Of a stretch of DNA of 58,130 nucleotides, positions 5,921-58,130 are shown piece after piece (position 1 is the stretch's first letter; each line of letters opens with the position of its first letter). The DNA comes from an uncultured beta proteobacterium (GTDB lineage: Bacteria; Pseudomonadota; Gammaproteobacteria; Burkholderiales; SG8-41), in the NCBI GenBank assembly GCA_903885665.1, contig CAISJL010000077.1:1-58130 (forward strand), written 5' to 3'. The position numbers and the translations under genes are program-made. The notes under the pieces are model-generated. The model made no database searches and was not told the origin of the DNA. It worked only from the letters and a program-made list of their open reading frames with translations.

Positions 5921-7304
5921 AACGTGCCGCCTCCGCGCCTGCAATTCGCCCAAAAGTAGTACCGATAGACATACCGATACCCGCTAAATAACCCTTACCT
6001 AAAACATTACCGGCCATAATTTCACCTGCTGCAAAAATATTTTTAGCGGGTTGCTCATCTTGGAACAACATCCGCGACTTATCATCAACAGTAACTCCGA
6101 GATACGTAAACGTAATCCCTGGTCGTAGCGGATAGGCAAAGTATGGCGGGGTATCGATCTTACGCGCCCAATGCGTCTTCGGTGGCACTAGCCCCTCGGT
6201 CACACAATCATCTTGAATCGTATGATCAAAAGTTCCCTCACGCACCGCAGCGTTAAATTGCGCAATCGTGATCTCCAGTGATTCAGGGCTCAATTCCAAC
6301 TTCTCTGCTAGTTCACGCAAACTCGAGGCCCGAATCGGCGGATAGACAGGCGGCATAAATTTACCCATCGCCTTAGAGTCAATAATTGAGTAACCAATTT
6401 GGTCGGGTTGACCCGCAACCAAACGCCCCCAAATGGCATAACGCTTAGGCCAGAAATCCTCACCCTCATCATAGAAACGCTTGGATTCTTTATTCACCAC
6501 AATACCTAAGGACACCGCATCCACACGAGTAATAATGCCACCATCGTATTTCGGTGAGCGGGCATCAATTGCCACACAATGACCTTGAGTTGCATCGCTA
6601 ATCGTTTTAGCACCATGGGCAATCAACATCTTCAACACTGTACCACGGTTATACGGCGTGCCCCGCACCAAGAAATTATCTGCTGGTGGCCCCCACGCCT
6701 CACGCAACCACTCGAGATTGGACTCAAAACCTCCGCAGGCTATGACTACGGCTTTTGCTCGCACCTTATGTTGCGCACCTTGATACGCTACGGTCGCAGA
6801 TTTAAAGGCTCCACCTTCAATCTCTAAATCAACCACTTCAGCTTCGTAATGAATATCAATACCCAAACGTTCTGCGGAGTCGTAATACGCGTTCATTAAT
6901 GCCTTACCCCCACCCAAGAAAAACGCATTGGTACGGGACAGATGCAATGTGCCCCCTAGCGGGGGTTGAAAGCGCACTCCATGCTTCATCATCCATGGCC
7001 GGCAACGCGAGGTGTCGCTAATTAACATTCGTGCTAAGTGCTCGGTGGTCAGTCCGCCAGTGACTTTCAGCAAATCTTGCCAATATTCTTCTTCAGGATA
7101 AGCATCGGTCAAAATGTCTTGCGGGCCTTCGTGCATGCAGCGCAAGTTACGGGTATGACGGGTATTGCCGCCACGAAAATCGATAGGGGCACCTTCGAGC
7201 AGCAACACACTACAACCCGCTTCGCGCGCTGTCAGTGCAGCGCAGAGTGCTGCATTACCACCACCAATCACCAATAAATCATAGGTTTTAGATGTATCAA
7301 GCAT
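5907..7304 (-). CDS. tcuA: TcuA, FAD-dependent tricarballylate dehydrogenase
   Basis: Flavoprotein that oxidises tricarballylate to cis-aconitate, letting the compound enter the TCA cycle. 465 aa, the usual size. The N-terminal FAD-binding motif DLLVIGGGNAALCAALTA starts at residue 9, followed by the acidic end of strand beta2 (LLLEGA). GGFESN and a C-terminal GEIMAGNVLGKGYLAGIGMS segment are typical of the fumarate reductase/TcuA flavoprotein group. It is the first gene of a two-gene operon with tcuB and is divergent from a Bug receptor at 7543. Tricarballylate is the best-known substrate; a related tricarboxylate or fumarate-like substrate remains possible. Confidence 0.9.
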   Translation of the reverse strand: MLDTSKTYDLLVIGGGNAALCAALTAREAGCSVLLLEGAPIDFRGGNTRHTRNLRCMHEGPQDILTDAYPEEEYWQDLLKVTGGLTTEHLARMLISDTSRCRPWMMKHGVRFQPPLGGTLHLSRTNAFFLGGGKALMNAYYDSAERLGIDIHYEAEVVDLEIEGGAFKSATVAYQGAQHKVRAKAVVIACGGFESNLEWLREAWGPPADNFLVRGTPYNRGTVLKMLIAHGAKTISDATQGHCVAIDARSPKYDGGIITRVDAVSLGIVVNKESKRFYDEGEDFWPKRYAIWGRLVAGQPDQIGYSIIDSKAMGKFMPPVYPPIRASSLRELAEKLELSPESLEITIAQFNAAVREGTFDHTIQDDCVTEGLVPPKTHWARKIDTPPYFAYPLRPGITFTYLGVTVDDKSRMLFQDEQPAKNIFAAGEIMAGNVLGKGYLAGIGMSIGTTFGRIAGAEAARYVNG

Positions 7305-7542
7305 GGGATAAGCCTTTGTACAGGGTGACTATAAATATGACGGTGAATTATACATGCCACATGGCTCGACTGAGCACCTACCAAGCAATTCTCAATGATC
7401 TCCCCATAACTGGCATAATCTGGAATAATGTCTCCATTGTGTGACGGACAATCACGAAAAAGTCCATATCTTAAAAACGTGATCACTCTCACTGCTACTG
7501 CTCAAACTCAAACGCAAACTATTAGGCCATTAGGAGGTATCG

Positions 7543-8559
7543 ATGCTCAAGCAACTTATCAGTGTGCCCACACTGGTCGCATGCATGCTCTTTTCTACCG
7601 CCAACATTCAGGCAGCAAGCTCTACTGCTGCAAGCGTCAATAACCCGAGCACTGTTACGCATGAAGACTATCCGAATCATAGCCTGAGATTGATTGTCGG
7701 CTTTCCGTCAGGTGGCGCCACCGACTTAGTCGCGCGCACCATCGCCCCCAAACTCAGCGAGCTACTCAAGCAATCCGTGATCATCGATAACCGCCCAGGG
7801 GCAAACGGCACACTGGCTGCCGGTTTGACTGCAGAGGCCTCTCCAGATGGCTACACATTGCACTTAGCCACCTTAGGCGCGATGGTCATTAGTCCTACCA
7901 TTACCAAGCTACCCTACGACCCTCTCAAAGACTTTGCCCCAATCGGATTAGCCGTCCGACTCCAGAACATATTTGTCACCCATCCACGAGTAGCTGCGCA
8001 CACCATCCCAGAGTTGATTACCTTAATGCGCCAAACACCCAACTTAAATTATGCTTCCTCAGGGCTAGGTAGTCCTGGCCACTTAGCCGGCGCACTGTTC
8101 CAAACCATGACCAAGACTGAACTCAACCATATTCCTTACAAAGGAGGTGGACTAGCCTTAGCAGACTTGGCCGGTGGCCAAATCCCACTATTTATTGCGG
8201 TTATCTCAACCAGTTTGCCGCTGGTAAAAGCGGGCAAAGTGAACGCTATTGCAGTCACCGGCCCCAAACGCACGCCGGTGCTGCCCGAAGTGCCGACCGT
8301 ATCAGAGACCAATGGACTCAAACAATATGAAGCCAGTAACTGGTATGGCTTAGTGAGCAGTGCCAATACACCCAAACCAATTATTGATCGGCTGCAAGCT
8401 AGCCTCCAAACCGTGATTTATATGCCTGAAGTGCGCGATGCGCTATTGGCACGCGGTATTGATCCCGCTCCCTCTACTCCGGAAGAATTTGTCAGCTATC
8501 TCAAAGCGGAAACCAATAAATGGCAAAAAGTGGTTAAGTTTGCCAATCTCAAACAGTAA
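7543..8559 (+). CDS. Bug/TctC family tripartite tricarboxylate transporter receptor
   Basis: Periplasmic Bug/TctC receptor, 338 aa. The signal peptide (LISVPTLVACMLFSTANIQA) is followed by a longer than usual low-complexity linker before YPNHSLRLIVGFPSGGATD. DNRPGANG, PDGYTLHL and HIPYKGGG are family hallmarks. The start is firm: AGGAGG at 7532-7537 is five bases before ATG 7543. It is divergent from tcuA with about 240 bp between them, so shared regulation with tricarballylate catabolism is plausible. Ligand not determinable from sequence. Confidence 0.92.
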   Translation: MLKQLISVPTLVACMLFSTANIQAASSTAASVNNPSTVTHEDYPNHSLRLIVGFPSGGATDLVARTIAPKLSELLKQSVIIDNRPGANGTLAAGLTAEASPDGYTLHLATLGAMVISPTITKLPYDPLKDFAPIGLAVRLQNIFVTHPRVAAHTIPELITLMRQTPNLNYASSGLGSPGHLAGALFQTMTKTELNHIPYKGGGLALADLAGGQIPLFIAVISTSLPLVKAGKVNAIAVTGPKRTPVLPEVPTVSETNGLKQYEASNWYGLVSSANTPKPIIDRLQASLQTVIYMPEVRDALLARGIDPAPSTPEEFVSYLKAETNKWQKVVKFANLKQ

Positions 8560-12714: not shown

Positions 12715-13176
12715 CTATAACAACTTGAGTTGGGCTAGTAACTCGGCACTTTCAGGTATTGAACCTTTGGCGTAAGTATGGGCATAACGCACAATACCGG
12801 CACGATCAATGACGTAAGCTGCGCGTTTGTCGGCACCACGCTCTGCATCAAAAACTCCAAACGCTGAACCCACTGCGCCATGCGGCCAGAAATCCGATAA
12901 TAGTGGGAATGGCACCCCACCTAAATGCGTGGCCCACGCTTTAAGACTGGGCAGTGGATCGATACTAACCTGAAGAATCTCAACCTCAAGTGCTTGAAAA
13001 GCGGCGTAGTTCGCACGGAACCCGTTGACTTGGTTGGTTCAGCCACCGGTAAAGGCAAACGGTAAAAAAGCCACCACTACAGGGCGACCTCGATATTGCG
13101 ACAAGGCAATCGCCTGCTCCTGGTTGTGCGCCCTTAATGAAAAATCAGGTGCTACTGCACCTACTTGAATATCCAT
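12715..13176 (-). CDS. selenocysteine-containing peroxiredoxin (Bcp/AhpE type), TGA at codon 46
   Basis: Thioredoxin-fold peroxidase reducing H2O2 and organic hydroperoxides; 153 residues if TGA is read as Sec. The start ATG 13176 has AAGGAG upstream, giving MDIQVGAVAPDFSL. The active-site segment reads VVVAFLPFAFTGG-[TGA]-TNQ. In Cys homologues this is PFAFTGxCTxE, so TGA (complement of 13039-13041) occupies exactly the peroxidatic cysteine. The frame then stays open through family features (LSDFWPHGAVGSAFGVFD, RAAYVIDRAGIVRY) to TAG at 12715. A hairpin follows the TGA. Gene callers would report only a 66-aa fragment from 12915. A nonsense mutation is the alternative, but position, intact flanks and a second such gene in the window favour Sec. 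Confidence 0.87.
13009..13030 (-). promoter_or_regulatory. candidate bacterial SECIS element in the peroxiredoxin mRNA
   Basis: Immediately 3' of the TGA (complement of 13039-13041) the mRNA can fold ACGG-GUU-CCGU (13025 to 13015), with lower pairs G-C and U-A from 13029/13028 to 13009/13010. The loop begins with G 18 nt after the UGA. A loop G at this distance is what SelB-recognised bacterial SECIS elements show. The stem is short with an internal loop, so this was judged by eye and not by energy calculation. Confidence 0.55.
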
Positions 13177-24490: not shown

Positions 24491-25222
24491 TTACCATGAG
24501 GTCACATCTCCTAACGAGGAATCCTCGGTCAGGGGCTTTGGTTGTTGTCCATCTACTTTCAGTGGATTATCAGCTCGCTCTAATTCATCATGACGCAGGC
24601 GTAACTCTGTTTTGTTTCGAGGCAAATAATGATTGGCAGGCTGAGTACCCCATTCTGGCATCAAGGTATATCCAGCACTCTCACGAATAGCCTTAGATAC
24701 CACTGACTCTGAGTCATGAATGTCACCAAACAATCTGGCATTCGTAGGGCACGCCATTACGCACGCTGGCTGACGCTCTGCTTCTGGTAAACACGGATCA
24801 TCAATACGATCTACACAAAGCGTACATTTTTTCATCACTTGCTGGTGCTCATCTATTTCTCTAGCACCATAAGGACAAGCCCAAGCGCAATACTTGCAAC
24901 CGATACACTTATCATAATCAACTAAGACAATCCCATCTTGGGGTCTTTTATAACTAGCACCTGTTGGACAAACAGGTACACAAGGCGGATCCTCACAATG
25001 CAAACACGATTTGGGAAAGTGCACAGTCTCGGTTTGCGGAAAACTACCAACCTCAAAGGTCTGCACCCGATTAAAAAAGACTCCAGTCGGATCTTTATCG
25101 TAAGGTCTATCGTCTGATAAATATCCAGACTCCCCCGAGGTATTCCACTGTTTACAACTAGTCACGCAAGCATGGCAGCCAACACATACATTCAAATCAA
25201 TCACAAGTGCTAATTGCGTCAT
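24491..25222 (-). CDS. soeB: 4Fe-4S ferredoxin subunit (DmsB/SoeB-like)
   Basis: 243-aa electron-transfer subunit with four cysteine clusters: CVGCHACVTSCKQWN, CLHCEDPPCVPVCP, CIGCKYCAWACPYGA and CTLCVDRI with CVMACPTNA, for four [4Fe-4S] centres. It links the molybdopterin subunit to the membrane anchor. The start ATG overlaps the end of the large-subunit gene by four bases (ATGA), so expression is coupled. Sequence and subunit layout resemble SoeB of cytoplasmic sulfite dehydrogenases, as well as DmsB and PhsB-type proteins. Confidence 0.85.
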   Translation of the reverse strand: MTQLALVIDLNVCVGCHACVTSCKQWNTSGESGYLSDDRPYDKDPTGVFFNRVQTFEVGSFPQTETVHFPKSCLHCEDPPCVPVCPTGASYKRPQDGIVLVDYDKCIGCKYCAWACPYGAREIDEHQQVMKKCTLCVDRIDDPCLPEAERQPACVMACPTNARLFGDIHDSESVVSKAIRESAGYTLMPEWGTQPANHYLPRNKTELRLRHDELERADNPLKVDGQQPKPLTEDSSLGDVTSW

Positions 25223-28116
25223 TTAAAATCTCCCTCACCTGCAACAAATGCTTGCCAGAGTCGCCGCACCGCATTAGTCCCCGGTGCAGCCGGAACTGCG
25301 TCAAATTGCGGAGAAGTCTTTAATGGCTCATCAGCAACGGTTTTCAATATACGCACTCGCACATCATACCAACCCGCTTGGCCGGTAATGGGGTCCGAGT
25401 TGGAAATACGCCGACCTTCATGGGTCATCAATTCATCAGAAATCACATGATTCAGTAGAAAACCACGCTGTGACTCATTCGCATCAGGAGCCAAATGCCA
25501 AGCACCTTGCGACTTCCCAATTGCATTCCAAGTCCAGACAGTACCTGGCTCAACCGCCTCGCTGAGTCTACACATACAACGCACTCGCCCATGCATGGAC
25601 TCAACCCACACCCAATCATCATCTGTGATACCGATTGACTTTGCAGTTTGACTATTCACAAACAAATAATTATGTGTATGAATTTGCCGTAGCCACGCAT
25701 TTTGCGAATCCCATGAGTGATACATGGCCATTGGTCTTTGGGTAATGGCGGCTAGGGGATAAGCATCGGTATCGGTCAGCTGCACTTCCAATGGAACATA
25801 ATAAAATGGTAAAGGATCAAAATAAGTGTCTATGCGTTGCCTTAAGTAATCTGGCGGTTGCCGTAATGAACCACCTCGCCCTTGTGCTGCCATTCTAAAC
25901 TTTTGCAAAACTTCAGAATAAATCTGAATCACAATAGGATCAGCATGGCGTCTTATTCGATTATCCACCGCCCAATCTTGATAACCTTTATTCCAATTAC
26001 GCATGTATTGCATAGACATAGGTAGGGGGTGATGAAATACGCAATTATTCTTTTCATACATTGCCCATTGCTCTGGATTTGGCTCTCCTACCATCGTTTT
26101 CTCACCATCGGCACCACGCCATCCAGCCAAAAATCCAATCCCAGATCCTGGCTCTGTTTCATATCGAGTGACAAAATCTGGGTAATCACGAAACTTCCGT
26201 TGACCATGCTCATTCATAAATGCAGGCAACTGTAAACGACCTGCTAACTCAATCAATACCTCTTGAAATGGTCGGCAATCACCTTTGGGCGGTAACACTG
26301 GAATTCTGACCGAATCTGCAGGCCCATCAAACTCAGAGATCGGACGATCCAGCATAGACATCACATCATGACGTTCTAAATAAGTGGTATCTGGTAATAC
26401 TAAATCAGCAAAAGCGGTCATTTCTGATTGAAAGGCATCACATACAATTAAAAATGGGATCTTGTAATCCCCCTGCTCATCACGATCATTAAGCATCTTG
26501 CGCACCTCGACAGTATTCATTGTCGAGTTCCAAGCCATATTAGCCATAAAGATTAATAAGGTATCAATCGGATATGGATCTCCTCGCCAAGCATTGGTAA
26601 TGACATTTTGCATCATGCCATGCACCGCCAATGGATACTCCCAAGAGAACGCCTTATCAATTCTAACGGCCTCTCCATTCGCATCCACAAACAAATCATC
26701 AGGTCCACCAGGCCAACCAAGAGGTAAGCCTGCCAACGGTGTCATTGCTTTGACCGCCTCTGGCCCTTTAGGGGGTTTTGCAAGAGGTGGGATGGGCTGC
26801 GGGAATGGCGCCTTATGGCGGAACCCACCTGGTCGATCTATAGTGCCTAGTGCAGACATAAGCACTGCCAATGCGCGTACCGTCTGAAAACCATTAGAGT
26901 GCGCTGCTAATCCACGCATAGCATGAAAGGCAACAGGATTGCCAGTGACACTATCGTGCTCTTTACCCCAAGAGTCGGTCCACGCAATAGGAAGTTCAAT
27001 GCGTTGATCGCGAGCAGTCACACCAATTTCTTTAGCTAAGCGCCGAATGGTTGAAACTGGAATTCCAGTAATCTTAGAGGCCCATTCTGGCGTGTATTCT
27101 TGCACACGATCTAATAGCAATTGGAATGCAGGCTTGACAGGTATTCCATAAACTTGATATTCACCAAGTAATGCAGGTGCGGCACCCAACGTGTGATTCA
27201 ACACCGCCCGCCCGCTAATACGATCCCACCACAACTGATTTTCAGATTGCTCATCAGCTCTAGAGGACGCTGAAGACTTTAATCTTACGGTCGCACCAAA
27301 ATTAGGGCTATGCGGATCTGTATCAATCAAATATCCAGCATTGGTATAACGCACCAAAAACTCACGATCATAAAGTCCCAAGTTTAAAATTTCGTGAGTC
27401 AATGCTAACAATAATGCACCATCAGTACCAGGACGTATCGGTACCCACTCATCAGCAATAGCGGAATAACCAGTCCGCACTGGATTTATGGATATAAATC
27501 GTCCACCACGACGCTTTAACTTTGAAATCGCAATTTTAAGTGGATTCGAGTGATGATCTTCTGCAGTGCCGATCATGACAAATAACTTTGCACGATCAAG
27601 ATCAGGTCCTCCGAACTCCCAAAAACTTCCACCAACCGTATAGATCATCCCCGCCGCCATATTGACGGAACAAAATCCGCCATGCGCAGCATAATTCGGC
27701 GTGCCAAATTGACGGGCAAATAGACCTGTCAACGCCTGCATTTGATCGCGACCGGTGAACATTGCAAATCGCTTTGGATCCGTTTCACGAATATGAAGCA
27801 GCCTGGACTCCATAATCGAAAAGGCCTCATCCCATGATATGGTCTCAAACTCTCCAAGGCCTCTTTCAGCGTTGGCTTTGCGACGCAAGGGTTGAGTCAA
27901 TCTTGCCGGCGAATATTGCTTCATGATACCAGAGGCGCCCTTGGCGCAAATCACCCCTTTATTGAGGGGGTGCTCAGGATTACCTTCTATATAACGCACC
28001 TCGCCCTTCTTAATATGCACCCTAATACCACAACGACAAGCGCACATGTAGCAGGTAGTATTTTTAACGCAGTCAATGCCTGCACTCTGACTGCCGCTTG
28101 TCTCGCCAAGTCTCAC
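25219..28116 (-). CDS. soeA: molybdopterin oxidoreductase large subunit, probably sulfite dehydrogenase SoeA
   Basis: 965-aa bis-MGD enzyme of the DMSO reductase superfamily. The N-terminal [4Fe-4S] motif is C22-x2-C25-x3-C29 with C57 (CAKGASGIMKQYSPARL). There is no twin-arginine signal, so it stays in the cytoplasm. That, plus the order A-B-C and the opening KNTTCYMCACRCGIRVH, fits SoeA, which oxidises sulfite to sulfate and donates electrons to quinone. A Cys in AAHGGFCSVNMAAG is a candidate Mo ligand. There is no in-frame TGA, so unlike some formate dehydrogenases it is not a Sec enzyme. The start is GTG 28116 with a weak ribosome-binding site. Polysulfide or thiosulfate reductase is the main alternative. 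Confidence 0.8.
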   Translation of the reverse strand: MRLGETSGSQSAGIDCVKNTTCYMCACRCGIRVHIKKGEVRYIEGNPEHPLNKGVICAKGASGIMKQYSPARLTQPLRRKANAERGLGEFETISWDEAFSIMESRLLHIRETDPKRFAMFTGRDQMQALTGLFARQFGTPNYAAHGGFCSVNMAAGMIYTVGGSFWEFGGPDLDRAKLFVMIGTAEDHHSNPLKIAISKLKRRGGRFISINPVRTGYSAIADEWVPIRPGTDGALLLALTHEILNLGLYDREFLVRYTNAGYLIDTDPHSPNFGATVRLKSSASSRADEQSENQLWWDRISGRAVLNHTLGAAPALLGEYQVYGIPVKPAFQLLLDRVQEYTPEWASKITGIPVSTIRRLAKEIGVTARDQRIELPIAWTDSWGKEHDSVTGNPVAFHAMRGLAAHSNGFQTVRALAVLMSALGTIDRPGGFRHKAPFPQPIPPLAKPPKGPEAVKAMTPLAGLPLGWPGGPDDLFVDANGEAVRIDKAFSWEYPLAVHGMMQNVITNAWRGDPYPIDTLLIFMANMAWNSTMNTVEVRKMLNDRDEQGDYKIPFLIVCDAFQSEMTAFADLVLPDTTYLERHDVMSMLDRPISEFDGPADSVRIPVLPPKGDCRPFQEVLIELAGRLQLPAFMNEHGQRKFRDYPDFVTRYETEPGSGIGFLAGWRGADGEKTMVGEPNPEQWAMYEKNNCVFHHPLPMSMQYMRNWNKGYQDWAVDNRIRRHADPIVIQIYSEVLQKFRMAAQGRGGSLRQPPDYLRQRIDTYFDPLPFYYVPLEVQLTDTDAYPLAAITQRPMAMYHSWDSQNAWLRQIHTHNYLFVNSQTAKSIGITDDDWVWVESMHGRVRCMCRLSEAVEPGTVWTWNAIGKSQGAWHLAPDANESQRGFLLNHVISDELMTHEGRRISNSDPITGQAGWYDVRVRILKTVADEPLKTSPQFDAVPAAPGTNAVRRLWQAFVAGEGDFK

Positions 28117-28908: not shown

Positions 28909-29556
28909 CTAAGCCTCTAACATTTGCTCCATTGCTTGTAATATTGCTGCTGGTTCTTGCGCGCCAGATATACCTACACGTCGATTAATGATAAAAAAAG
29001 GCACCCCTTGTATACCCAACTGCCGCGCATCATGCTCTGAAGCTGAAATTAATTCTTTATCTGCATCGCTTTGCAAATATGCAATCACTGCTGCCGACTC
29101 AATACCCACATCAACCGCACATTGAATAAGCAAAGCTTCATCACATAAATTAAGACCCTGTATAAAATATGCATGAAATATACGCTCAACCACCGCATCT
29201 TGAAGATGTCGTGTTGCGGCAAAGTGAATCAAACGATGTGCGTTAAACGTATTTGGTTGCATTTGAATTCGATTGAACGAAAAATGAATACCCACAGTCA
29301 AACCAACTTCGGCAACACGTTGGTAGCGTGAAATATCTGGACTACCAAATTTCCTGGTTAGGTAATCAGCCCGAGCAATGCCACTAGCTGGTAAGTCCGG
29401 ATTTAATTGAAAAGGTAACCAACTCACGGTTGGAATTGGTCCATTAGGGTGTAATTCTGAAAATTGCTTTAAGGCGATTTCGAGCTTACGCTTCCCAATG
29501 AAGCACCAAGGTCAAACAGGGTCAGAGACCACTTCAACATTGACTAATGATTCCAT
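28909..29556 (-). CDS. selenocysteine-containing DsbA/FrnE-family oxidoreductase, TGA at codon 15 (UPWC motif)
   Basis: 215 residues when TGA is read as Sec. It is a cytoplasmic DsbA-like thioredoxin-fold protein of the FrnE/2-hydroxychromene-2-carboxylate isomerase-like group. ATG 29556 follows GGAGAG. The N-terminus reads MESLVNVEVVSDPV-[TGA]-PWCFIGKRKLEIAL, where homologues have a CPWC active site, so the TGA (complement of 29512-29514) replaces the nucleophilic first Cys. The frame is intact afterwards, with GVPFFIINRRVGISGAQEP (cis-Pro loop) near the C-terminus. A 7-bp hairpin follows the TGA. Automatic callers would start at 29427 and lose the active site. Role: thiol/disulfide exchange; partner unknown. 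A nonsense mutation is the alternative. Confidence 0.9.
29488..29506 (-). promoter_or_regulatory. candidate bacterial SECIS element in the DsbA-like mRNA
   Basis: Starting 6 nt after the UGA, GUGCUUC pairs with GAAGCGU (five Watson-Crick pairs closing the loop plus two G-U wobbles at the base). The loop is AUUGG, with its G residues 16-17 nt after the UGA. This is the spacing and loop content expected for SelB binding. The stem falls over the codons for the conserved WCFIGKR segment. Confidence 0.7.
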
Positions 29557-29617
29557 AACTCTCCAAAATATTATTTAAATGACATAAACAAATAAAAGTG
29601 AAGCTCAATAAAGGAGC

Positions 29618-56775: not shown

Positions 56776-58130
56776 TTAGTAGCTTGCTTCCTCTTGTTTT
56801 TTCACATCTGTCGTCGTCGATGTATATCCTGAATTAGATTCAACATTACGCCCACTATCAGCAGGGATAGGCGCCTGATTTCTGATTGGGGTTGATTCAA
56901 TATTACCTACATTTTCAGCGGGGGCGGATACAGCAGGGTTAGTTACTGGATTTCTAACGGGTACCAATATGGGATTTGCACTCATATTAGCTAATGGCAT
57001 TATCGTCATTGGATTGACTGCAATTTCTGGTTTGATATTCATCTGTTTGGCTGCAATACTGCTCACAGCATTTTCCAGTCTGGAAGATACCGACGCTGGA
57101 ACTATCCCATAACCATAATTCACCTTTGAAACTGATGCTTGAACGCCTCCGGTCACAATAGCAGTTGCGCCACTACCACTAATATTATTTGTCATAACCA
57201 TAGGAATACTTTTATCAAACTTTAAACTTCCGTTATTAATAATAGATCCAGTCCCTAAGGATCCCGAAGTGCCGCCATCACCCACCTTCAAAGTACCGGC
57301 AGTAATCGTCGTAGCGCCTGAGTAGGTGTTTGTACCGGTAATCGTTGTCGTGCCTGTGCCTGTGAGGGCCAGCGCACCACTACCACTGACATTATTTGCA
57401 AATGTAATTGCATCACTGCGGTTAACGGCCAATGAGCCGTTATTTATTACTGCACCAGTACCTAAACTACCTGATGTGCCACCTGCACCGACTTGTAAAG
57501 TGCCGGCAGTAATCGTTGTGGGGCCTGAGTAGGTGTTGTTACCCGTAATGGTTGTGGTGCCAGTGCCCGTGAGTGCTAAGGCACCCGTGCCACTGACGTT
57601 ATTTGCTAGTACCACTGCATCACTACGATTCACTGCTATTGCGCCATTGTTCACTATCGCACCAGTCCCTAAGCTGCCTGAGGTGCCACCATTACCAACT
57701 TGTAGCGTGCCTGCACTAATGGTTGTAGGACCTGAGTAGGTGTTGTTACCGGTAATGGTCGTTGTTCCCGTGCCGGTGAGTGCTAAGGCACCCGTGCCAC
57801 TGACGTTATTTGCTAGTACCACTGCATCACTACGATTCACTGCTATTGCGCCATTGTTCACTATCGCACCAGTCCCTAGACTACCTGACGTGCCACCATT
57901 ACCAACTTGTAGCGTGCCGGCACTAATGGTTGTAGGACCTGAGTAGGTGTTGTTACCGGTAATAGTCGTTGTTCCTGTGCCGGTGAGTGCCAACGCTCCG
58001 CTACCACTCATATCATTGGACAATGTCACTGCATCACTGCGGTTTACCGCTAATGCGCCGTTATTCACTACTACACCCGTGCCTAAGCTACCTGACGTGC
58101 CGCCATTGCCGACTTGCAAGGTGCCGGCAC
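56776..58130 (-). CDS. autotransporter-associated beta-strand repeat protein, 3' part (5' end outside window)
   Basis: At least 451 codons, open at the right edge; the true start is beyond the window. The visible part is Gly/Thr/Asn/Ser-rich beta-helix repeats with a 69-residue unit (core GTLQVGNGGTSGSLGTG, then NRSDAVVLANNVSGTGAL and TTTITGNNTYSGPTT), of the autotransporter-associated beta-strand (PATR) type. After the repeats comes a roughly 130-residue Pro/Asn/Ala-rich tail, ending TTTDVKKQEEASY. No 12-strand barrel with a terminal Phe is present, so this is not a classical autotransporter; a surface or secreted adhesin exported by other means is possible. Confidence 0.85.
   Translation of the reverse strand, partial: AGTLQVGNGGTSGSLGTGVVVNNGALAVNRSDAVTLSNDMSGSGALALTGTGTTTITGNNTYSGPTTISAGTLQVGNGGTSGSLGTGAIVNNGAIAVNRSDAVVLANNVSGTGALALTGTGTTTITGNNTYSGPTTISAGTLQVGNGGTSGSLGTGAIVNNGAIAVNRSDAVVLANNVSGTGALALTGTGTTTITGNNTYSGPTTITAGTLQVGAGGTSGSLGTGAVINNGSLAVNRSDAITFANNVSGSGALALTGTGTTTITGTNTYSGATTITAGTLKVGDGGTSGSLGTGSIINNGSLKFDKSIPMVMTNNISGSGATAIVTGGVQASVSKVNYGYGIVPASVSSRLENAVSSIAAKQMNIKPEIAVNPMTIMPLANMSANPILVPVRNPVTNPAVSAPAENVGNIESTPIRNQAPIPADSGRNVESNSGYTSTTTDVKKQEEASY
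57160..58130 (-). repeat. 207-bp tandem repeats within the adhesin-like gene
   Basis: Four full units and one degenerate unit with a 207-bp (69-codon) period; boundaries fall near 57291, 57498, 57705 and 57912. The two units covering about 57533-57946 are almost identical at DNA level, while the unit nearest the stop is more diverged. This suggests recent duplication and a gene length that may vary between strains. Confidence 0.93.

Follow-up and report, generated by a model that had tools for sequence, protein, structure and literature searches.

Selenocysteine (Sec)-containing DsbA-like proteins (COG2761) with a UxxC motif were reported in 2005 from the Sargasso Sea, as 9 sequences (PMC1088965). 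They appear as DsbA 1 in the GOS report (PMC2398784), occur in the lists of PMC1794560 and PMC5029168, and are entered as DsbA-like form 1 in a 2026 review (PMC13188914). According to the Sargasso Sea report, stem-loops resembling bacterial SECIS elements follow the TGA in every one of its new selenoproteins. The published model of the bacterial SECIS (bSECIS) places the loop 16–37 nt after the UGA for most elements, with an upper stem of 4–16 bp and a minimum free energy of −7.5 kcal/mol or lower, and some bacterial SECIS elements are described as not fitting it (PMC13188914, PMC12013277). FrnE proteins are described as DsbA-family thiol oxidoreductases that are predicted to be cytoplasmic; many but not all of them carry a C-terminal CXXXXC motif, located at residues 239–244 in Deinococcus radiodurans (PMC8945050).

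The gene studied here lies on the minus strand of the window (the whole stretch of DNA analyzed, 58,130 nt) at 28909–29556. Its frame, from ATG 29556 to 28909, reads MESLVNVEVVSDPV-TGA-PWCFIGKRK..., ends in a TAG stop, and contains a single in-frame TGA at codon 15 (29512–29514, minus strand). When this codon is translated as Sec, the product is a protein of 215 amino acids with a UPWC motif. A Shine-Dalgarno-like GGAG (29561–29564, minus strand, row L018) precedes the ATG. The original prediction of a DsbA/FrnE-type oxidoreductase was borne out, as the Pfam DSBA domain (PF01323) covers residues 7–209 (E value of 9.4e-37) and the best solved relative by sequence is Deinococcus FrnE (PDB 5cnw, phmmer E value of 1.6e-37), whose CPWC aligns with the UPWC of the window protein. 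An NCBIfam search of the window protein gave two matches, both below the cut-offs. As had also been predicted, mechanical ORF calling starts this gene at GTG 29427, and the active site is lost.

The window gene shares with Sec DsbA-like form 1 the PF01323 domain and a UxxC motif in which Sec replaces the first active-site cysteine, and it is retained across a single betaproteobacterial family of environmental genomes. Because the Sec DsbA-like family has already been reported, the proteins of the window clade are new members of a known family. They can also be set against the FrnE of D. radiodurans (DR_0659), which has CPWC where the window protein has UPWC and for which the C-terminal CXXXXC is described; that motif was not found at the C-terminal end of the 215-amino acid window protein. 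In our reading, the N terminus shows no obvious signal peptide, which would agree with the cytoplasmic location predicted for FrnE. By analogy with FrnE, the window enzyme most likely reduces or rearranges cytosolic disulfides, with Sec as the attacking nucleophile and Cys18 as the resolving residue.

The comparisons below use the window's genome plus 99 related genomes, and a set of 100 distinct homologous loci (L018–L127, ten duplicates removed). Across these 100 loci, the codon aligned with codon 15 is TGA in 46, TGC in 33, and TGT in 21, with no other codon, and Pro16, Trp17, and Cys18 are invariant in 100/100. The TGA thus takes the place of the first cysteine of CPWC, as originally proposed. 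We refer to the 46 loci with TGA as Sec genes and to the other 54 as Cys homologues or Cys genes.

The hairpin directly after the UGA

The original prediction pointed to a 7-bp hairpin right after the UGA, with a GG in its loop, as the SECIS. This hairpin (GCTTC-ATTGG-GAAGC plus wobbles, codons 17–23) does exist in the window gene, and the GG lies at nt 16–17 after the TGA. Its stem, which pairs +6..+10 with +20..+24, is complete in 93% of the Sec genes versus 63% of the Cys genes, and its five pairs form in 43 of the 46 Sec genes, above a codon null in which the protein was fixed and codons were redrawn from each gene's usage in 400 draws (mean 28.2, maximum 37). It is the local fold of the window when only the first 33–54 nt are folded, and RNAalifold likewise picks it when given the initial 45 or 60 nt of the Sec genes. 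These results speak for a reading in which Sec is inserted under the direction of this hairpin and the downstream block described below is conserved for another reason.

We consider that reading unlikely. The loop of the hairpin starts ∼12 nt after the UGA and lacks a G at positions 1 and 2, and the structure falls outside the published bSECIS limits. It is found in the predicted 114-nt minimum-energy fold of only 2 of the 46 Sec genes, with a pair probability above 0.5 in 2/46, and its covariation is no greater than that of shuffles (327 of 500 reach the same value). In 54-nt folds, its mean pair probability is alike in the Sec genes (0.21–0.26) and the Cys genes (0.22–0.28). The folding energy over the 39 nt after the UGA is weaker in the Sec genes (−9.9) than in the Cys genes (−12.2), and a comparison of local folding energy with synonymous shuffles did not find a Sec/Cys difference just after the UGA. 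Likewise, a codon-conservation scan of the Sec genes did not find a local rise at codons 16–31.

A scan with the canonical model (loop, stem, G, and spacing limits) did not find a canonical bSECIS in the window gene; the model fits 16/46 Sec versus 42/54 Cys genes, and 10 Sec and 33 Cys genes when the energy limit is added. Other stems that differ between the two sets are +20..+24/+37..+41 (70% of Sec versus 22% of Cys genes) and +46..+60 (52% versus 0%). The hairpin and its loop GG are present as first described, whereas a role for them as the SECIS is not supported; the post-UGA hairpin is probably not the SECIS, and a displaced structure fits instead.

Upstream of the Sec codon, Val14 (29517–29515), which directly precedes the UGA, is encoded by GTT in 33 of the 46 Sec genes, including the window gene. 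This codon makes up 8.7% of the downstream Val codons of the same genes, and GTC or ATC is preferred at codon 14 in the Cys homologues. Codon 10 (29529–29527 in the window, where it is GTC) is GTT in 29/46 Sec genes. We note this as a context signal upstream of the Sec codon. A hairpin proposed by RNAalifold over codons 8–14 was set aside, as the Sec-specific GTT codons turn its G-C or C-G pairs into G-U.

Displaced pairing in the Sec genes

High codon conservation in the Sec genes at codons 40–51, together with codons 8–19, led us to a second, displaced element. Synonymous codons that are conserved beyond expectation include Pro37 CCC (41/43, 17 expected), Asp38 GAT (42/42, 18 expected), Ala43 GCC (44/44, 17 expected), and Val44 GTG (46/46, 23 expected), all of which are absent from the top 22 over-conserved codons of the Cys genes. 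Over-conserved codons of the Sec genes are also found outside the element, for example at 51, 60, 90, 151, and 187.

When RNAalifold was applied to an alignment of the 46 Sec genes (A1, the UGA plus 114 nt), it predicted a three-way junction. One arm is closed by a looping-out helix (helix 1), which pairs codons 19–21 with codons 37–39 (columns 15–20/68–73), each pair being present in 45 or 46 of the 46 Sec genes. In the window its 5′ strand is CAUUGGG (consensus CAUCGG; columns 15–21; 29494–29500, minus strand) and its 3′ strand is CCUAAUG (consensus CCGAUG; columns 67–73; 29442–29448, minus strand). A second arm, at codons 42–46, is an apical hairpin, the candidate SECIS, that reads CCAAC[CGUGA]GUUGG in the window (consensus CCGGC[CGUGC]GCUGG; 29419–29433, minus strand); with a sixth pair included it occupies columns 81–86/92–97, and this sixth pair (81–97) is present in 44/46 Sec genes. 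The apical loop is CGUGC in 45/46 Sec genes and CGUGA in the window (29424–29428, minus strand), where it contains GTG 29427; mechanical ORF calling thus starts inside the predicted SECIS loop, and the active site of the window gene is lost. A weakly supported short outer helix, predicted by RNAalifold, closes the junction (5′ strand at 29505–29508, columns 7–10; 3′ strand at 29413–29416, columns 99–102; both minus strand), and of its four pairs, three are present in the window fold.

In 33 Sec genes the distance from the UGA to the apical loop is 83 nt, and in seven that have one codon fewer it is 80 nt. Because helix 1 spans 59 nt (columns 15–73), the loop lies 24 nt after the UGA (21 nt in the one-codon-shorter genes) once these nucleotides are omitted. 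Helix 1 itself begins 12 nt after the UGA, which is approximately where mRNA enters the ribosome.

Comparison and prediction show that this pairing is specific to the Sec genes. The five apical pairs are complete in 40/46 Sec versus 2/54 Cys genes, and 40/46 versus 0/54 have, within 120 nt, a CGTG[AC] loop closed by 5 bp or more. Against the codon null, helix 1 is complete in 45/46 Sec genes (null mean 8.6, maximum 17) and the apical hairpin in 40/46 (null mean 18.6, maximum 27). Over helix 1 and the apical hairpin, 98.3% of the cells in the alignment are paired, versus 13–57% in slid controls. The same two helices contain 12 double-sided changes versus 2.8 in shuffles, with 0/500 as high; as the Sec rows form one clade, neither the pairing counts nor the change counts are independent events, and related rows can exceed shuffles without structure. 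The changes are G-C to A-U at 81–97 (nine rows) and at 85–93 (two rows, the window and L042), and C-G to U-A at 18–70 in a single row, the window (U18-A70). The number of pair types in the element (9) is not above that of shuffles (9.1).

Folding the Sec genes one sequence at a time, which is blind to the alignment, placed helix 1 in the minimum-energy fold of 39/46 and the apical hairpin (four pairs counted) in that of 36/46; pair probabilities exceed 0.5 in 42/46 and 37/46, respectively. For the window gene itself, the minimum-energy fold includes helix 1, with a probability of 0.78. The apical hairpin is weak there, as an alternative register is favored over the consensus one by 1.5 kcal/mol, and the consensus register has a pair probability of 0.03. 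The alternative, which uses an upstream CCAAUU copy, is preferred because CCAA occurs twice upstream. The apical hairpin alone has an energy of −4.5 kcal/mol, and the whole window stretch has −23.4 kcal/mol with the consensus pairs enforced and −24.9 kcal/mol when folded freely; its fold is moderately better than those of shuffles (z of −1.86).

A CGUG hairpin at 83 nt is also found in L195, from a genome of another family (G064). It is present in L196 and L197 as well, but these two are the loci L086 and L083 over again, on the same contigs. An RNA model of the element (R1) scores the Sec genes at 104–137 bits and the Cys genes at 24–91 bits, a difference that does not separate the two by structure because R1 also scores the shared coding sequence. 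No other gene with the displaced layout was found by R1, as all 44 matches in 61 genomes lie at DsbA-type genes when coordinates are compared by eye.

The window contains a second selenoprotein gene, which we read as a peroxiredoxin (12715–13176, minus strand) with a TGA at 13041–13039 that places Sec at the peroxidatic position (FTGGU). Its hairpin, GGUUC[CGUGC]GAACU, lies 21 nt after the UGA. The best peroxiredoxin match has one TGA in 33 of the 34 genomes with a match, and in the 34th it is a fragment that starts after the TGA. Among the 30 Sec-peroxiredoxin loci of the clade, 28 were located by pattern and two were mis-located; in all 28, a CGUG(C/A) loop stands exactly 21 nt downstream of the UGA, with 5 bp or more in its stem. 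For the SelD genes, a related CGUUG loop 19 nt after the UGA is the best hit in 16 of 22 located genes, with stems of 3–7 bp. When the window's own genome is compared with the bSECIS limits, SelD fits all of them (−8.6) and the peroxiredoxin fits all except energy (−5.5).

These comparisons also bear on whether the downstream structure has some other role, such as mRNA stability or translation pausing, and is associated with Sec by coincidence. Its linear spacing lies beyond the published bSECIS range and SelB binding is a prediction, both of which would suit such a role. We nevertheless regard it as quite improbable, since the CGUG hairpin is absent from 54/54 Cys homologues and its CGUG(C/A) loop is the same as that of the clade's Sec-peroxiredoxins, where it stands at canonical spacing.

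The reading of the UGA in the clade

The best match to the window protein has exactly one TGA in 54 of the 100 genomes, 15 genomes carry the Cys form alone, and a strong match is lacking in 31. The genomes with the TGA form are 53 of the 60 members of one family (f1) and G064, from another family of the same order; in the remaining seven f1 genomes the match is absent or weak. None of the 20 further genomes of the class with a match has the TGA form, nor was it found among the matches listed from 166 other matching genomes of the phylum. Plasmid records with matches to the window protein number 823, all below 60% identity, and one locus on viral contigs matches it. On the protein tree, the Sec rows require a single change versus a shuffled mean of 33, although that exact branch has low support (12). 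The Sec clade sits within Betaproteobacteria/Burkholderiales metagenome genomes, including SG8_41.

Two record titles are at odds with their positions in the tree. L076 is on a contig titled Methylomirabilota, and its Sec dsbA is nested in the betaproteobacterial clade, which reflects mis-binning or transfer; L061, from a metagenome bin titled Bordetella parapertussis, groups inside the environmental Sec clade, and its name is probably wrong. A distant paralogue (L194, G033:C79; 30% identical) has an in-frame TGA in U-P-F-C. It is possibly an independent Sec DsbA-like protein, and a CGUG hairpin of the displaced kind was not found within 150 nt in it.

Comparison likewise shows the presence of Sec machinery, a check that the original prediction had called for. 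The window's genome contains SelB (433.6 bits) and tRNA-Sec (75.6 bits), both above the cut-off and on one contig (C163), where we read an adjoining ORF in the list for L017 as SelA, and a SelD above the cut-off (410.7 bits) that has its own in-frame TGA. A selB above the cut-off is present in 50/54 TGA genomes versus 5/15 Cys-only genomes (Fisher p = 6e-6). The TGA genomes without a full selB match are G003, G010, and G041, which are 74–88% complete, and G036, in which the match is partial and at a contig end.

The SelD gene of the window's genome (L128, C50:21632–22561) has its TGA in GGG-U-GCK. Among the matches listed, SelD has one TGA in the window's family and none in many matches from other families of the order. 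On the tRNA-Sec contig, after selB, lies a thioredoxin-reductase-like FAD/NAD(P) ORF (L017, ∼6920–7827) with a CADC motif in our reading, the product of which could be a partner of the selenoproteins. A comparison of 23 loci, in clusters that contain antisense frames, did not find a flanking gene common to the whole clade; the upstream gene is one that we read as MmgE/PrpD in 6/23, window included. Elsewhere in the window, 24491–28116 (minus strand) encodes what we read as a 4Fe-4S protein and a molybdopterin oxidoreductase, whose large-subunit frame has no internal TGA before its stop, and 56776–58119 (minus strand), near the contig end, has long near-identical Gly/Thr-rich repeats that we read as autotransporter-like.

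TGA also serves as the terminator in 17 of the 44 Sec genes with a known gene end. It is therefore not simply reassigned in these genomes, and its reading at codon 15 must be position-specific. An altered genetic code or a suppressor tRNA (the tRNA search covered the window) that would make the TGA a Trp or Cys codon is therefore very improbable; in addition, the homologues have only Cys codons at this position, and Sec machinery is present and associated with the TGA form. The chance that a Cys-to-stop mutation left a truncated pseudogene, or that the TGA is a sequencing error, is negligible despite the start of the mechanical ORF call at 29427 and the dropped active site, as this reading is refuted by comparison unless all loci share one artefact: the TGA recurs in the best match of 54/100 genomes at 46–59% protein identity to the window, and each of the 100 distinct loci has a TGA or a Cys codon. 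The gene decay in relatives that the original prediction had raised was not seen, the frames being open on both sides of the TGA.

Based on the conserved TGA or Cys codons, the Sec machinery, and the additional use of TGA as a terminator, the reading of UGA codon 15 as Sec is strongly supported at the level of sequence comparison, and we hold it with high confidence.

A looped-out SECIS as a model

We consider it likely that the window gene encodes a cytoplasmic FrnE/DsbA oxidoreductase with Sec at UGA 15, the insertion of which is directed by a displaced, helix-looped SECIS. While the UGA occupies the A site, helix 1 would stand at the mRNA entry of the ribosome and would present the apical hairpin to the SelB-GTP-Sec-tRNA complex at a normal distance; both helices would be melted once translation resumes. 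Under this proposal, SelB would bind the apical CGUG(C/A) loop, and helix 1 would be what restores the spacing.

Like a canonical bSECIS of the Escherichia coli fdhF type, the displaced hairpin has a short apical loop with G-U at positions 2–3 and a stem of 5–6 bp, and it is within the 4–16 bp given for the upper stem (five pairs in 40/46, the sixth in 44/46). It differs in its linear spacing, which is 83 or 80 nt rather than 16–37 nt, and in its need for a second, long-range helix; the effective spacing of 24 or 21 nt is comparable only with the 59-nt arm left out. Relative to the SECIS-like stem-loops reported for the new selenoproteins of PMC1088965 as a whole, the element of the window clade is displaced by about 60 nt.

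In the literature searched, mostly open-access, we found no description of a displaced, looped-out, or three-way-junction bacterial SECIS. The layout thus appears to be new, and the protein family is known. The element probably represents a new structural class, a three-way-junction bacterial SECIS in which a long-range helix loops out ∼59 nt and brings a SelB hairpin that lies over 80 nt beyond the UGA to a normal effective distance.

The bacterial SECIS is described as following the UGA directly, a spacing that is built into prediction tools. If our proposal is true, what bacterial Sec insertion reads is distance in three dimensions and not along the mRNA, which could explain some of the selenoprotein genes missed by bSECIS scanners; a conserved looped-out SECIS offers one explanation in concrete structural terms and a rule that can be tested, namely that effective and not linear spacing counts. 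The truncation of the gene call at the GTG in the loop, seen in the window, probably affects its relatives alike. For this family, the displaced element may show how an overlapping RNA signal was moved from an almost invariant active-site stretch (CPWCFIGKR) to a freer part of the gene.
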